A stretch of DNA of 64,000 nt from Thermus thermophilus. GTDB lineage: Bacteria; Deinococcota; Deinococci; Deinococcales; Thermaceae. Under the pieces are notes generated by a model. That model did not search any database, was not told the DNA's origin, and saw only the letters and a list, made by a program, of their open reading frames with translations. Shown one piece after another: positions 31,658 to 45,461 of this stretch; the first letter of the stretch is position 1, and the number at the start of each line of letters is the position of its first letter. Made by a program: the position numbers and the translations under genes. The DNA lies in assembly GCF_019974155.1 (NCBI RefSeq), contig NZ_AP025158.1:1860001-1924000 (forward strand), in the 5' to 3' direction.

Positions 31658-32341
31658 ATGCTCCTCCTCCTGGGCCCCACGGACGCGGGAAAGACCACCC
31701 TGGCCAGGCGGCTCCTCCAGAAGGCGGGCGAGGCCTTCCTCCTGGACCTGGACCCGGGGCAGGGGGCCCTTCCCGGGACCTTCTCCCTCTTCCTCCATCG
31801 GGAGGGGCGCCTCCTCCTGGTGCGCCGGACCCTTTTGGGCACCCTCTCCCCGGCGGGGGCGGAGGCGAAGGCCCTGGTGGCGGCCCTGCGCCTGGCCCGC
31901 CTCATCCCCCAAGGAAGCCCCGCGGTGGCGGACACGGACGGGCTTTTGGACCCGGGGTACCGCCTTTTGCAGGTGGACGCCCTAAACCCCGTAGAGGTGG
32001 CGGTCCTGGAGGCGGAGGAGCTCTACAGGGCCCTCGCCTGGCGGAAGGACCTCCGGGTGCGCCTCCTCCCTCCCCTCCCCGAGGCCCGGAGGAAGACCCC
32101 GGCGGAGAGGCGGAAAAACCGGCAGGAAAGGCTCCTCGCCCACTTTCAGGAAGCGGGGCCGAGGCTTGCCCCCCTCGAGGGCCCGCCCCTCTGGGACCGG
32201 CTCTACGGCCTCCTGGACCCCGAGGGGTTCTTCCTGGGCTACGGGAGGCTCCTCGCCTTCGGGGGGCGGGGAGGGGCTCTTCCTCACCCCGGCCAAGGGG
32301 GAGGTGGCCAAGGCCCTCCCCACCCGCCTCAGCCTCCCTAG
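31658..32341 (+). CDS. Clp1/Grc3-like P-loop polynucleotide kinase, C-terminus frameshifted at a G6 run
   Basis: P-loop protein whose Walker [17 protein letters not shown] and following [15 protein letters not shown] strongly resemble the Clp1/Grc3/NOL9 polynucleotide 5'-hydroxyl kinase family. About 201 residues read well in this frame; after six consecutive G (32261-32266) the remaining residues become Gly/Pro-rich nonsense. Skipping one G enters a frame reading [20 protein letters not shown] to a TGA at 32358-32360, which fits the family's C-terminal style and overlaps the end of leuS by 23 nt. Either the gene is recently broken, the run is slippery, or there is a sequence error. AGGGAG precedes the ATG. 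Confidence 0.7.
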
Positions 32342-34974
32342 CCCCGCACTACCAGGTTGAGGATCTTCCCCGGGACGTAGATCTCCTTCACCACCTCCTT
32401 GCCCTCGAGGTGGGCCTGGACGTTTCGCACCTTAAGGGCCTCGGCCCGCGCCACCTCCAGGGGGGCGTCCTTGGGGATTCGGATCGTCCCCCGCACCCGC
32501 CCGTTCACCTGGACGGCCACCTCCACCACGTCCTTCTCCAGGGCCTTCTCGTCCAGCTCGGGCCAGCCCGCCTGGAAGAGGCTATCGGGCCAGAACCAGT
32601 GCCAAAGCTCCTCGGCCAGGTGGGGGGCGAAGGGGAAGAGCATCTGCAGGTAGTAGCGGAGGGCGGTGCGGTAAACGGGGGTCACGGGGCGGTCCTTGCG
32701 GTACTCGTAGAGGGCGTTCAGGAACTCCATGAGGGCGGCGATGGCGGTGTTGAAGCGGAGGGCCTCGAGGTCCTCCGTGACCTTCTTCAGGGTCTCGTGG
32801 AGCTTACCGTAAAGCTCCCGGTCCTTCCCCTCCAACGCCTCCGCCTGGAAGACCTCGCTCGTCGCCAAAAGGGCCTCCCGGTCCTCGGCCACCCGCCGGT
32901 AGATGCGGTTCAGGAAGCGCCAGGCCCCCTGGACCCCCTCCTCCGTCCAGACCATCTCGTTCTCCGGGGGCGCGGCGAAGAGGATGGTGATGCGGGCGAT
33001 GTCCGCCCCCTGCTCCTTCACGAAGGGCCCCACCATGACGCCGTTGCCCTTGGACTTGCTCATGACGGCGGGCTTCCAGAGGTGGAGGGTGCCGTCCTCG
33101 TGGGGCCTGAGCTCGGCCCCCATCTTCCGCACGTCCTCCAGGGAGAGGGCGCTTTCCGGGATCTCCAGCCGGATGCGGGTGGGCTCGGGGAGGCGCACCA
33201 CCTCGCCTTCCACTTCCACGGGGCCAAAGTCCGTCCAGGCGAGGACCATGCCCTGGGTGAAGAGGCCCTGGAAGGGCTCCTCCACCTTCACCATCCCCAG
33301 GTCGTGGAGGAACTTGGTGAAGAAGCGGCTGTAGAGGAGGTGAAGCACCGCGTGCTCCACCCCGCCGATGTACTGGTCCACGGGCATCCAGGCGTTCGCC
33401 TTCTCGGGGTCAAAGGGGAGGCGGTCGTTGTGGGGGTCGGTGTAGCGCAGGTAGTACCAGCTGCTGTCAAAGAAGGTGTCCATGGTGTCCGTGTCCCGCT
33501 TGGCGGGGCCGCCGCACCTGGGGCAGGTGGTCTCGTAGAACTCGGGGTGGGCCTCCAGGGGGCTTTTCCCCTTGGGGCGGATGTCCTCCACGTCCTTGAG
33601 GTCGGGAAGGAGCACGGGAAGCTCCTCCTCGGGGACGGGGACCACCCCGCAGGCCTCGCAGTGGACCATGGGGATGGGGGTTCCCCAGTAGCGCTGGCGG
33701 CTGATGAGCCAGTCCCGGAGGCGGTAGGTGACCCGGCCCTTACCCAGGCCCTTCTCCTCCAGCCAGGCGATGACCCTCTTCTTCCCCTCCTCGCTTGGCG
33801 TGCCGTCAAAGGGCCCGGAGTTCACCATGATCCCGGGCTCCTCGTAGGCCCTTTCCAGGGGCTCGGGGAGGGGGTCTTCAGGCCGCTCAATCACCTTCTT
33901 GATGGGAAGGCCGAACTTCCTGGCGAACTCGTAGTCCCTCTGGTCGTGGGCGGGGACGGCCATGATGGCCCCGGTGCCGTAGCCATAGAGCACGTAGTCC
34001 GCGGTCCAGATGGGGACCCTCTCCCCCGTGGCGGGGTTTAGGGCGTAGGCCCCGAGGAAGACCCCGGTCTTCTCCCTGCCTTCCGCCTGGCGCTCAATCT
34101 CCGTCTTGCGCTTGGCGGCCTCCACGTAGGCCAGGACCTCCTCCCGCCTCTCGGGGGCGGCGAGCTCCAGGGTGAGGGGGTGCTCCGGGGCGAGCACGAG
34201 GAAGGTGGCCCCGAAGAGGGTGTCGGGCCGGGTGGTGAAGACGGGGATCTTCACCTCCTTCCCCTCCACGGGGAAGAGGATCTCCGCCCCCTCGGAGCGG
34301 CCGATCCAGGCCCTTTGCATGGCCTTGACCTTCTCGGGCCAGTCCAGGCCCTCGAGGTCCTTAAGGAGCCTCTCGGCGTAGGCGGTGATGCGCAGGTACC
34401 ACTGCTCCAGCTCCCGCTTCTCCACGGGGGTGTCCTCGTGCCGCCAGCACCGCCCCTCCACCACCTGCTCGTTGGCGAGGACCGTCTGGCACTTGGGGCA
34501 CCAGTTGACGAGGCCCTTCGCCCGGTAGGCCAGGCCCTTTTCCCACATCTTGAGGAAGATCCACTGGTTCCAGCGGTAGTACTCGGGCTCGCAGGTGGTG
34601 ACCTCCCGGTCCCAGTCGTAGAGGATGCCCATGAGCCGGAGGCTCTCCTTGGCCTGGCGGATGTTGGCGTAGGTCCAGTCCTTAGGGTGGACGCCGAACT
34701 TCAGGGCGGCGTTCTCCGCCGGAAGGCCAAAAGCGTCCCAGCCCATGGGGTGGAGGACCTCGTAGCCCTGCATCCGGCGGAAGCGGGCCAGGACGTCCCC
34801 CATGGTGTAGTTCTTCAGGTGGCCCATGTGCAGGTCCCCCGAGGGGTAGGGGAACATGACGAGGACGTACTGCTTCCCCCGGCCCCCCGGGAGGTCCTTG
34901 GCCTTCATGAACCCCTTCTCCTCCCAGAAGCGCTGCCACTTGGCCTCAATGGCGTGCGGGTTGTACTTCTCCAT
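32338..34974 (-). CDS. leuS: Leucyl-tRNA synthetase
   Basis: 878-residue class Ia synthetase charging tRNA-Leu. HIGH-type motif HMGHLKNY (about 50-57), CP1 editing domain (about 220-420; the [19 protein letters not shown] segment), zinc-ribbon cysteines (CPKC...C and CPRC), the KMSKS-type loop VMSKSKGNG (about 637), and a C-terminal anticodon-binding and tail region. ATG at 34974 with AGGAG 2 nt upstream. The gene is preceded by a leader peptide and terminator/antiterminator structure described separately. Confidence 0.97.
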
Positions 34975-34985
34975 GGCTCCTCCTC

Positions 34986-35034
34986 AAAAAAGCCCCTCCC
35001 TAGGAGGGAAGGGGCCGCAAAAACCCTTCCCCCC
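34986..35034 (-). promoter_or_regulatory. leuS transcription attenuator (terminator plus competing antiterminator)
   Basis: Read on the minus strand. Terminator: GCCCC-T-TCCCT-CCT-AGGGA-GGGGC (35015 to 34992, ten pairs with a single bulged T) followed by six T (34991-34986), just before AGGAG and the leuS ATG. Antiterminator: GGGAAGGG (35031-35024) can pair with CCCTTCCC (35013-35006), which is the 5' arm of the terminator, so the two structures exclude each other. I see no T-box specifier or T-box sequence. Confidence 0.75.
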
Positions 35035-35035
35035 G

Positions 35036-35059
35036 CTAGGGACGTAGGGACGCGCGCAC
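35036..35059 (-). CDS. leuS leader peptide candidate (leaderless, 7 codons)
   Basis: TATCAT (plus-strand 35066-35071), 6 nt, then GTG CGC GCG TCC CTA CGT CCC TAG. The peptide MRASLRP contains one leucine, encoded by CTA, a codon that is rare in this GC-rich window. The stop lies just before the antiterminator 5' arm. A ribosome stalled at CTA would stand upstream of the arm, whereas one at the stop would cover part of it. Confidence 0.5.
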   Translation of the reverse strand: MRASLRP

Positions 35060-35065
35060 GCCCCC

Positions 35066-35071
35066 ATGATA
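35066..35071 (-). promoter_or_regulatory. -10 element for the leuS leader
   Basis: TATCAT on the minus strand, 6 nt from the leader GTG. The -35 region has no good match to TTGACA. Confidence 0.5.
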
Positions 35072-35102
35072 CGCCTTTGCGCCGGGGCGCTTCCACACGA
35101 AA

Positions 35103-35132
35103 GCCCCGCGCCGGACTTTTCCAGCGCGGGGC
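35103..35132 (-). terminator. Terminator after rpsA
   Basis: GCCCCGCGC / GCGCGGGGC stem with a 12-nt loop, followed on the minus strand by TTT. It separates rpsA from the leuS leader transcript. Confidence 0.75.
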
Positions 35133-35145
35133 CTGGGAAAGGGTC

Positions 35146-36756
35146 TTAGCCTCGGCTCTTCTCCTCAGCCTCCTCCTCGAAGCCCAGGCTCGCCAAGAGG
35201 TCGCCGTAGAGGTCGCCGAGCTTCACCGTGGCCGTGGTGGTGGGCACGCTGGAGGCGTCGTAGAGGTTGTACTCCGCCACGGCGCCGTACTCGTACTCCC
35301 TCCGGTCCTCCCGGCGGGGCGCCCCCTTGCGGCGGGCGCGCTCCTTGCCCGAGCGGGCGCGGCGGGGCCGCTCCTCCTCCTGGGGCAGGGGGGGCGGAAG
35401 GAGGCGCTTGCGGGAGAGGGAGACCCGCTGCTCCACCGGGTCAATGTTGAGGACCACGACCTCCATCTCGTCCCCCTTCTTGAAGAGGGCGGCCGGGTTC
35501 TCCACCCGCTTGTGGTCCAGCTCGGAGACGTGGACGAGCCCCTCAATGCCGGGCTCAATCTCCACGAAGACCCCGAAGTCCGTGACCCCGGTAACCTTGC
35601 CCTTCAGCACGGTGCCGGGCGGGTACTTCTCCGTGAGCTGCTGCCAGGGATCGGGCTGGGTCTGCTTGAGGCCCAGGGAGAGGCGGCGCTCCTCGGGGTC
35701 CAGGCGCAGGACCACGGCCTCCACCTCGTCCCCCTCCTTCACCACCTCGGAGGGGTGCTTGGGCCGCTTGGTCCAGGAGAGCTCGGAGATGTGGATCAGG
35801 CCCTCGAGGCCCGGCTCCACCTCCACGAAGGCCCCGAACTGGGTGAGGCCCACCACCTTGCCCCGGACCCGGGTGCCCACGGGGTACTTCTCCGCCACCG
35901 TGGTCCAGGGGTCGGGGATGAGGGCCTTGATGGAGAGGTTGACCCGCTCCTTCTCGGGGTCCACGGAGAGGACCTGGGCCTTCACCTTCTGGCCCTTCTG
36001 GATCACCTCGCGGGGGTGGTTGAACCGCCCCCAGGTGATCTCGGAGCGGTGGACCAAGCCGTCCACGGGGCCCAGGTTGACGAAGACCCCGAAGTCGGTC
36101 ACCTCCACCACGGTGCCCTCCACCACCTGGCCGGGCTCGAGGCTCTTGAGGAAGGCCTCCCGGGCCCGCTTCTGCTCCTCCTCCAGCACCGCCCGGCGGG
36201 AGAGGATGACCCGGCCTTTACGGCGGTGGAACTCAATGATCTTGGCCAGGACCTGCTGGCCCACGAACTCGTCCAGGTTCGGGACGCGCCTAAGGTCCAG
36301 CTGGGAGGCGGGCATGAAGCCCTGGACACCGTCCAGCTCGGCGACCACGCCCCCCTTCACCCGCTCCTTGATGGTCACGGTGACGGGCTCGCCCTTCTCG
36401 TAAAGCTCCTGGACCCGGTCCCACTTCTCCTGGGCCTCGATCTTCTTCCGGGAGAGCAGGATCTGGCCCGTCTCGGGGTCCACCCGGAGCACCTGGACCT
36501 TCACCTCGTCCCCAGGGCTCAGAAGGTTCCTGAGTTCCTCCTCGGAGAGGGGCTTGGTGGTGAGCTGGTTGAAGGGGATGATGCCCTCGGTCTTGGCGCC
36601 GATGTCCACCGCCACGCCTTCCGAGCCCACCAGAACCACCTTGCCCGTCAGGATCTGCCCGGGGCGCACGCGCTTCTCCAGCCGGGCCTCCGTCTCCTGA
36701 AGGGCCTCTTCCATGCTGAAGGTCTGTTCCGGGGTCTGGGTCGCCTTGTCTTCCAT
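35146..36756 (-). CDS. rpsA: 30S ribosomal protein S1
   Basis: 536 residues with five recognisable S1 OB-fold repeats (starts near 33, 108, 190, 277 and 363; typical strings VEGTVVEVTDFGVFVNLGPVDGLVHRSEITW and VLKGKVTGVTDFGVFVEIEPGIEGLVHVSEL). Binds mRNA on the 30S subunit. A basic low-complexity linker RPRRARSGKERARRKGAPRRE near residue 455 precedes a short acidic tail. Its promoter and structured leader lie at 36786-36886. Confidence 0.95.
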   Translation of the reverse strand: MEDKATQTPEQTFSMEEALQETEARLEKRVRPGQILTGKVVLVGSEGVAVDIGAKTEGIIPFNQLTTKPLSEEELRNLLSPGDEVKVQVLRVDPETGQILLSRKKIEAQEKWDRVQELYEKGEPVTVTIKERVKGGVVAELDGVQGFMPASQLDLRRVPNLDEFVGQQVLAKIIEFHRRKGRVILSRRAVLEEEQKRAREAFLKSLEPGQVVEGTVVEVTDFGVFVNLGPVDGLVHRSEITWGRFNHPREVIQKGQKVKAQVLSVDPEKERVNLSIKALIPDPWTTVAEKYPVGTRVRGKVVGLTQFGAFVEVEPGLEGLIHISELSWTKRPKHPSEVVKEGDEVEAVVLRLDPEERRLSLGLKQTQPDPWQQLTEKYPPGTVLKGKVTGVTDFGVFVEIEPGIEGLVHVSELDHKRVENPAALFKKGDEMEVVVLNIDPVEQRVSLSRKRLLPPPLPQEEERPRRARSGKERARRKGAPRREDRREYEYGAVAEYNLYDASSVPTTTATVKLGDLYGDLLASLGFEEEAEEKSRG

Positions 36757-36905: not shown

Positions 36906-37620
36906 TCATCCCTTTCCTCCTCCCAGTTCCTGAGGCAACCGGACCAGCGCTGCCCGCACGGCTTCCCTCCAAGGCAGGGGTCCCTGGGCCAGGGCGATCC
37001 GGCCCAGACGGAAGAGGCTCTGCCGCTCGGGATGGGCCAGGAGCCGGGGAAGCCATTCCCTGCCCTGCAAGCGCGCCCCCAGAAGGACCAAGAGCGCCAT
37101 CCCCAAGGCCAGAAGCCATAACCACCCCCTGAGGCTCGCCCCCGTCCGCAGCCGATGGCGGTCCAGCCCAAACCCCTGCCCCTTCAGGTCCCTAAACCCC
37201 TCTTCAATCCACATCCGCCACCCATAGGGCGGCTCCCCCCCAAAAGGGCCCGAATAGGCCAGATACCAGGGATCCCGACCCCCTGGGTACACCAGGAGGG
37301 TGACTTCTACCCCCTCCCCACCGTGTCCGAAAAGGCGGACCTCCTCCCGCAGGGGGTGGACCACACGCTGGTAGCCCTCCTTCAGGGGAAGGCGCTTCCC
37401 CCCTTGGGGTTCCACCTCCCGGTTCTACTAGAGGCGGAGGAGGAAGCCCATGCCCCACCCCTGGAGCTTTTGCCTCAGGGAAGCCCGGTCAAAGCCGCGG
37501 TCCGGGAAGAGGGGGGTATACCCCAGATCCTGGACGGCGCGGCCCAGGCGGTGGAGGAACTCCTCCTCCACCCGGTTTTGACTGGGAAGAGGGGGGTGGC
37601 AGGCGGCCCGCCTTACTTGC
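36906..37620 (-). pseudogene. Degenerate IS4-family transposase remnant
   Basis: C-terminal half of a DDE transposase: FPDRGFDRASLRQKL (second Asp region) then YGWRMWIEEGFRDLKGQG, which fits the IS4 YxxRxxxExxxxxxK signature. A double stop TAGTAG (plus-strand CTACTA, 37425-37430) interrupts the frame between these motifs, and the N-terminal third including the first Asp is missing. No inverted repeats were recognised. Borders are approximate. The stretch up to 37695 holds nothing else that I can support. Confidence 0.75.
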
Positions 37621-45242: not shown

Positions 45243-45363
<121 letters not shown>

Positions 45364-45370
45364 AAGCCTT

Positions 45371-45461
45371 TGGCGGAGGGTGAGGGATTCGAACCCCCGG
45401 TGGGCCCAAGGCCCACAGCGGTTTTCAAGACCGCCGCCTTCAACCGCTCGGCCAACCCTCC
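45371..45461 (-). tRNA. tRNA-Ser (TGA)
   Basis: 91-nt type II tRNA with encoded CCA. Acceptor GGAGGGT / ACCCTCC, anticodon loop CTTGAAA with TGA at 45425-45427, variable arm GTGGGCC-TTG-GGCCCAC, T-arm GGGTTCGAATCCC. Seven bases upstream of the other tRNA-Ser, same transcript. Confidence 0.95.

Follow-up and report, generated by a model that had tools for sequence, protein, structure and literature searches.

The leucyl-tRNA synthetase gene leuS of Thermus thermophilus is very probably controlled by ribosome-mediated transcription attenuation with a leaderless leader peptide, as judged from its upstream sequence and from related genomes. Charged tRNA-Leu(UAG) is the best explanation for the signal that such a leader would sense. 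All parts of the predicted switch, their recurrence in relatives, the bias in codon choice and reading frame, the constant spacing and the mutually exclusive helices are seen in the sequences compared here.

Architecture of the leuS upstream region

We analysed a stretch of 64,000 nucleotides of T. thermophilus DNA, here called the window, in which leuS is encoded on the minus strand. The gene product matches the solved leucyl-tRNA synthetase 1h3n, which we take to be the T. thermophilus structure, over residues 1-878. The following features were located, in the order of transcription:

35101..35133, minus strand: strong hairpin 3' of the upstream gene (fold z -4.58)
35066..35071, minus strand: -10 box TATCAT, read from the sequence, 6 nt (GGGGGC) before the leader start codon
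35036..35059, minus strand: leader ORF of 7 codons, GTG CGC GCG TCC CTA CGT CCC TAG (fM-R-A-S-L-R-P)
35045..35047, minus strand: candidate control codon CTA (rare Leu codon, read by tRNA-Leu UAG)
35014..35057, minus strand: possible protector fold of the ORF (segment 1) with segment 2 in untranslated nascent RNA
35024..35033, minus strand: antiterminator 5' arm (segment 2), GGGGGAAGGG
35004..35013, minus strand: antiterminator 3' arm (segment 3), inside the 5' half of the terminator
34986..35016, minus strand: intrinsic terminator, ten pairs at 35016-34991 and T6 at 34986-34991 (about -19 kcal/mol)
34977..34985, minus strand: leuS ribosome-binding site, GAGGAGGAG, read from the sequence
32338..34974, minus strand: leuS, leucyl-tRNA synthetase, 878 aa, ATG at 34974

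An earlier note on this DNA had described TATCAT, a spacer of 6 nt, GTG and a 7-codon ORF with one CTA and its stop, as well as a ten-pair terminator with T6 directly before the leuS ribosome site; all of these are present on the minus strand. The antiterminator stem that it had proposed is there as well, and only its length has to be revised: 8 Watson-Crick pairs (GGGAAGGG/CCCTTCCC) can be extended to 10 pairs including one G-U (35033-35024 with 35013-35004, -17.5 kcal/mol). Since the antiterminator 3' arm lies within the terminator 5' arm, both helices are mutually exclusive, just as had been claimed.

Judged by the promoter spacing, the leuS transcript would start at or next to 35059, and the leader ORF is predicted to be leaderless and translated. 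The upstream ORF (35146-36756) is presumably rpsA-like. The strong hairpin that follows this gene makes it likely that leuS has its own promoter, isolated from the preceding gene. The length from the leader start codon through the end of T6 is 74 nt.

Altogether, 47 matches to tRNA genes were found in the genome of the window. The ten with long variable arms were typed, and five of these are tRNA-Leu, with the anticodons UAG, CAA, UAA, CAG and GAG in one gene each. Two adjacent tRNA-Ser genes (anticodons GCT and TGA) are located in the window on the minus strand at 45271-45461, and a minus-strand ORF at 36906-37415 presumably resembles the C-terminal part of a transposase.

Proposed mechanism

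RNA polymerase would start on the first base of the mini-ORF or beside it, and the ribosome would load on the RNA 5' end; with 74 nt up to the end of the T run, it would have to load very fast. If Leu-tRNA(UAG) is scarce, the ribosome would wait with CTA in the A site and its front edge just short of segment 2. Segment 2 would then pair with the emerging segment 3, block the terminator and allow transcription of leuS. If the tRNA is charged, the ribosome would reach the stop codon and cover all or part of segment 2, and the terminator would form. Untranslated RNA would terminate too in most Thermus leaders, because there segment 2 folds back onto the ORF. What we infer from these parts is a stall at CTA and a leucine-responsive read-through. 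The proposal of the earlier note that the leader senses charged tRNA-Leu is thus supported by the sequence comparison, with the clarification that its "tRNA-Leu(CUA)" corresponds to the tRNA-Leu that decodes CUA, whose anticodon is UAG.

A mini-ORF with an in-frame CTA recurs across the phylum

The sample comprised 111 genomes of the phylum, of which 100 had a leuS match at a cut-off of E 1e-20; the upstream regions of these matches were scanned. The 11/111 genomes that had no leuS match at this cut-off were left out; three of them have a completeness of 90% or more and a contamination of 5% or less. Two genomes (G090 and G109) have two leuS matches each, of which one apiece was used, and the upstream region of G086 is only 47 nt long.

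Mini-ORFs were picked without reference to CTA: a -10 box starting with TA and ending with T had to be followed after exactly 6 nt by ATG or GTG and an ORF of 6-45 codons, within 330 nt. Such a mini-ORF was found in 65/100 leuS upstream regions, and all of these except that of G063, 64 in total, have a CTA in frame. The same pick returned 74 mini-ORFs from 2000 mononucleotide-shuffled upstream regions, 18 of these with CTA. The main doubt in the earlier note, that a single Leu codon is too weak a count, is answered by this result. Picks with CTA were obtained in 27/27 genomes of the genus and, given by our group labels, in f1g2 (2/2), f1g3 (1/1), f1g4 (12/17), f1g5 (2/2), f2 (2/2), f3 (13/34), f4 (2/12) and f5 (3/3). 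With a looser rule, which allows a spacing of 5-9 nt and demands a CTA, a leader was found in 80/100 genomes. Because this rule itself asks for CTA, the 80 leaders are no evidence for the codon, whereas the 65 blind picks are.

The set of mini-ORF, CTA, -10 spacing, antiterminator and terminator recurs in five families of the phylum. A terminator with a strict U-tract was detected in 63 of the 80 leaders and not found in 17, 12 of which are from f3. The leader is present in most, but not all, of the genomes examined: 20/100 lack a CTA leader even with the looser spacing. Reading by eye the upstream regions that had given no early hit in the scan also revealed some leuS genes that have no visible leader, which makes losses likely.

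The same attenuator could be preceded by a short 5' UTR, so that the ORF would not be leaderless. This is unlikely. The start site is deduced from promoter spacing, and this spacing is 7-9 nt in some f1g4, f3 and f4 leaders and 5 nt in one, which leaves some room for a 5' UTR; against it stand the blind picks with exactly 6 nt in 65/100 upstream regions. A -10 motif located approximately 6-7 bp before ORFs has been reported to drive leaderless expression in D. radiodurans, and genome analysis extends this rule to the whole phylum (PMC12340547), which also argues for a leaderless ORF.

Three f1g4 genomes carry a gene for tRNA-Leu(UAA) just upstream of leuS (L120, 914-999, plus strand; L199, 518-603, minus strand; L204, 518-603, minus strand). 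One of the f1g4 genomes with this upstream tRNA (G032) has no leader, and two (G069 and G074) retain the CTA mini-ORF after the tRNA. The leader ORF of G021 is identical to that of the window. Its leuS N-terminus match (G021:C1:1812310-1812608) consists of two overlapping pieces in different open frames, which is perhaps due to a frameshift in the assembly or in the gene. A related-locus search of genome contigs gave 80 loci, none of which is titled from this phylum.

Codon choice and reading frame of the leader ORFs

The 55 distinct leader ORFs contain 101 Leu codons, of which 78 are CTA (CTC 7, TTG 5, CTG 5, CTT 4, TTA 2). For comparison, CTA accounts for 46 of 3022 Leu codons (1.5%) in the part of leuS that was sampled from the same 100 genomes. 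The preference is confined to one reading frame, with 78 CTA in frame versus 6 in the other two frames of the same ORFs. A bias in both codon and frame points to decoding as its cause, rather than RNA structure or base composition. CUA has been described as the most suitable Leu control codon by theory and by experiments in Salmonella (cited in PMC1183508).

Spacing and folding of the predicted switch

The geometry was analysed with the 59 distinct leaders among the 63 (out of 80) that have a strict terminator. For each of them, the transcript was searched from nucleotide 10 onwards for the helix that pairs best with the terminator 5' arm, and CTA was not used in this step. In 52/59 leaders the antiterminator 5' arm starts 11-17 nt past the first base of the first CTA, compared to 18% in shuffled sequences; outside the genus this holds for 28/35 leaders. 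The front edge of a ribosome lies approximately 12-13 nt beyond the first base of the A-site codon, and a ribosome waiting at CTA would thus just leave segment 2 free. The seven leaders that deviate are those of G034 (-7), G038 (5), G041 (7), G109 (9), G101 (19), G100 (21) and G081 (30). The positions of CTA and arm are correlated (Spearman 0.68 overall and 0.72 outside the genus), with the reservation that related sequences are not independent.

When nascent RNAs were folded with the ribosome-covered part masked, the antiterminator was obtained in 53/59 leaders for a ribosome stalled at CTA and in 1/59 for a ribosome at the stop codon. In RNAs folded with no ribosome, pairing between segments 1 and 2 is seen in 21/59 distinct leaders, including 18/24 in the genus and that of the window. 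For complete leaders with a CTA-stalled ribosome, the lowest-energy fold is still the terminator in 47/63, and in these the switch would have to be kinetic, with the antiterminator forming first. In the complete leader of the window the lowest-energy fold lacks the terminator at the CTA stall and has all of it with the ribosome at the stop. When its nascent RNA is truncated at the last base of the terminator 5' arm, the fold fails to distinguish the two ribosome positions (0.29 of the helix at CTA, 0.43 at the stop); with three more bases the antiterminator helix forms fully.

The antiterminator helix is better than in shuffled sequences (p<=0.05) in 35/59 leaders, and p is 0.065 for that of the window. 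The fold z is -1.16 for the 80-nt leader of the window, 0.29 for the 52-nt nascent leader (35008-35059, -19.2 kcal/mol, no better than shuffles), -1.59 and -1.48 for the antiterminator pieces and -2.48 for the terminator alone. Apart from the terminator, the folds of this one leader are therefore unremarkable, and the case against chance rests on the comparison. The antiterminator letters vary between genera yet stay complementary. Covariation was analysed in an alignment of 25 rows, made up of 24 of the 27 genus leaders and G028 (f1g3), with G006, G008 and G024 omitted as duplicates. In this alignment neither the antiterminator nor the terminator was above shuffles, and the pairing of segments 1 and 2 was slightly above them. 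The earlier note had proposed to check relatives for a conserved ORF with a Leu codon and for covariation in both stems; mini-ORF, CTA and stems do recur in five families, but covariation within the genus is weak or absent.

These data bear on a second explanation, in which the mini-ORF is a bystander and the level of leuS depends on the intrinsic terminator, alone or together with a protein or RNA factor, with no ribosome involved. The wide occurrence of the terminator among the leaders (63/80) would fit this explanation, as would the preference of full-length folds for the terminator despite a stalled ribosome (47/63). We nevertheless consider it very unlikely, since a bystander ORF accounts neither for 78 CTA in frame versus 6 out of frame nor for the nearly fixed distance from CTA to the arm.

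Arrest could also be brought about by the nascent chain, or by slow release at a Pro-stop, instead of CTA decoding. The codon just before the stop (35039-35041 in the window) is Pro in 27/27 genus leaders, which agrees with such an arrest. Outside the genus the last residue varies (e.g., Thr, Cys, Arg, Gly, Asp and Pro), and the residues around CTA differ between families, so that arrest in place of CTA decoding appears very improbable indeed. Slow termination at the Pro-stop might keep the ribosome over segment 2, where termination is favoured, and could thus assist attenuation by CTA decoding, our preferred model.

Specificity of the leader and search for similar designs

The genome-wide pattern consisted of a -10 box, a start codon and a T run with a gap of 55-85; a gap of 30-60 is too short for the leuS leader. 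This pattern matched the leuS leader in 27/27 genus genomes. In the genome of the window it had, besides the leuS leader, a single further match, where an ordinary ORF of 124 codons begins (L164). Other matches in the genus, some of them recurrent, are mostly ordinary genes: among 18 non-leuS loci checked, 16 are starts of ORFs that extend beyond the T run, and two have short ORFs, with 19 codons in L141 and 8 codons in L157. A hairpin of -10 kcal/mol or better precedes the T run in 8/18 of these matches; thus, a hairpin alone does not discriminate. The 19-codon ORF of L141 (G024:C3:1164421-1164504; MLLLAYVQKEVYAKRPTPL) has a -10 box 6 nt upstream and ends ahead of a T run that has a weak hairpin. 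With a gap of 86-116, no leader-like repeat was seen by eye in the match list.

As a control, the blind pick was applied upstream of other genes. The starts of leuA and pheS were located by tblastn, and whole loci were used for ileS and valS; approximate gene starts gave the same counts. No mini-ORF was picked for ileS (0/9), valS (0/9) or leuA (0/30). Four of 30 were picked for pheS, all of them in f5, with Phe codons and without CTA. The four pheS mini-ORFs (L277, L281, L284 and L292, from G040, G044, G052 and G048, respectively) are located 208-234 nt before the start of the pheS match, and each follows a -10 box after 6 nt and contains Phe codons that are conserved, as in the example ATG GTC AAT GCA CTT TCG CCA TTT ACA AGA TTC GCG TAG. 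We regard them as candidate Phe attenuators of the leuS-leader design.

A tRNA-sensing T-box, as in Firmicutes aminoacyl-tRNA synthetase genes, would share gene class and signal with the leader described here and has a negligible probability, since none of the 18 Rfam matches obtained for 34800-35250 up to E 5 is a T-box and the leader has just 74 nt, fewer than T-boxes usually have. The 18 Rfam matches were taken as chance: all are below the gathering score, the best being 'sok' with 28.2 bits compared to a gathering score of 59.

Discussion

Leaders of the Thermus trp and leu genes are the subject of older papers. The leu operon leader of Salmonella and E. coli is not known to be leaderless, nor is the gamma-proteobacterial pheST leader. 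A partial literature search found no description of a leuS leader of the present kind for Thermus or Deinococcus, and the terms leuS, attenuat- and leader peptide are absent from the main text of the report on leaderless expression in D. radiodurans (PMC12340547). From Streptomyces, both leader peptides of the leaderless type and attenuators of leuS are known already; what appears to be new, within this partial search, is their predicted occurrence in Thermus and its relatives.

The closest parallel is in Streptomyces. The leuS leader LeuL2 of Streptomyces lividans is reported to encode a leader peptide that is transcribed leaderless (PMC8079986), and candidate leuS attenuators have been listed for S. 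coelicolor and S. avermitilis (PMC1262725). The Streptomyces leaders share with the one described here the gene leuS, the leaderless leader peptide (in S. lividans) and a hairpin with uridines before leuS, but they belong to another phylum and carry three consecutive Leu (MRAVRLLLSEPR). The leu operon leader of Salmonella and E. coli is alike in its CUA control codon and in that the ribosome position chooses between antiterminator and terminator; in contrast, it precedes a biosynthetic operon and has three CUA (PMC1183508), where the leuS leaders often have a single CTA. The polycysteine short ORFs of mycobacteria (Canestrari 2020, via PMC9031893) are leaderless too and have codons that sense an amino acid, but they belong to Cys operons, and the candidate leaders described there are without obvious terminators (PMC1262725). 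The gamma-proteobacterial pheST leader represents classical attenuation of an aminoacyl-tRNA synthetase gene, with another amino acid (PMC1262725). The actinobacterial LEU element combines a leader ORF with a pseudoknot before leuA, a different gene, for which our blind pick found nothing.

If the proposed mechanism is correct, it extends attenuation by leaderless amino-acid leader peptides to Thermus and its relatives. For this phylum an annotation rule can be derived, namely a -10 box, 6 nt, a start codon, an in-frame CTA, a terminator and leuS. Since ribosomes and RNA polymerase from Thermus are standard material for structural work, it should be possible to assemble a CTA-stalled ribosome behind the polymerase and to test it in vitro. 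The leader would also be a small natural system for asking for the minimum number of codons and bases that attenuation needs.

More tentatively, and with somewhat less than even chances in our estimate, the leader may be a regulator ancestral to the phylum and an attenuator of minimal design, often with a single CTA and outside Thermus mostly with no protector hairpin, in which the ribosome has to capture the nascent 5' end directly behind the polymerase. If this is true, leaderless loading would take over the role of the pause hairpin, by which ribosome and polymerase are synchronised in classical attenuators.
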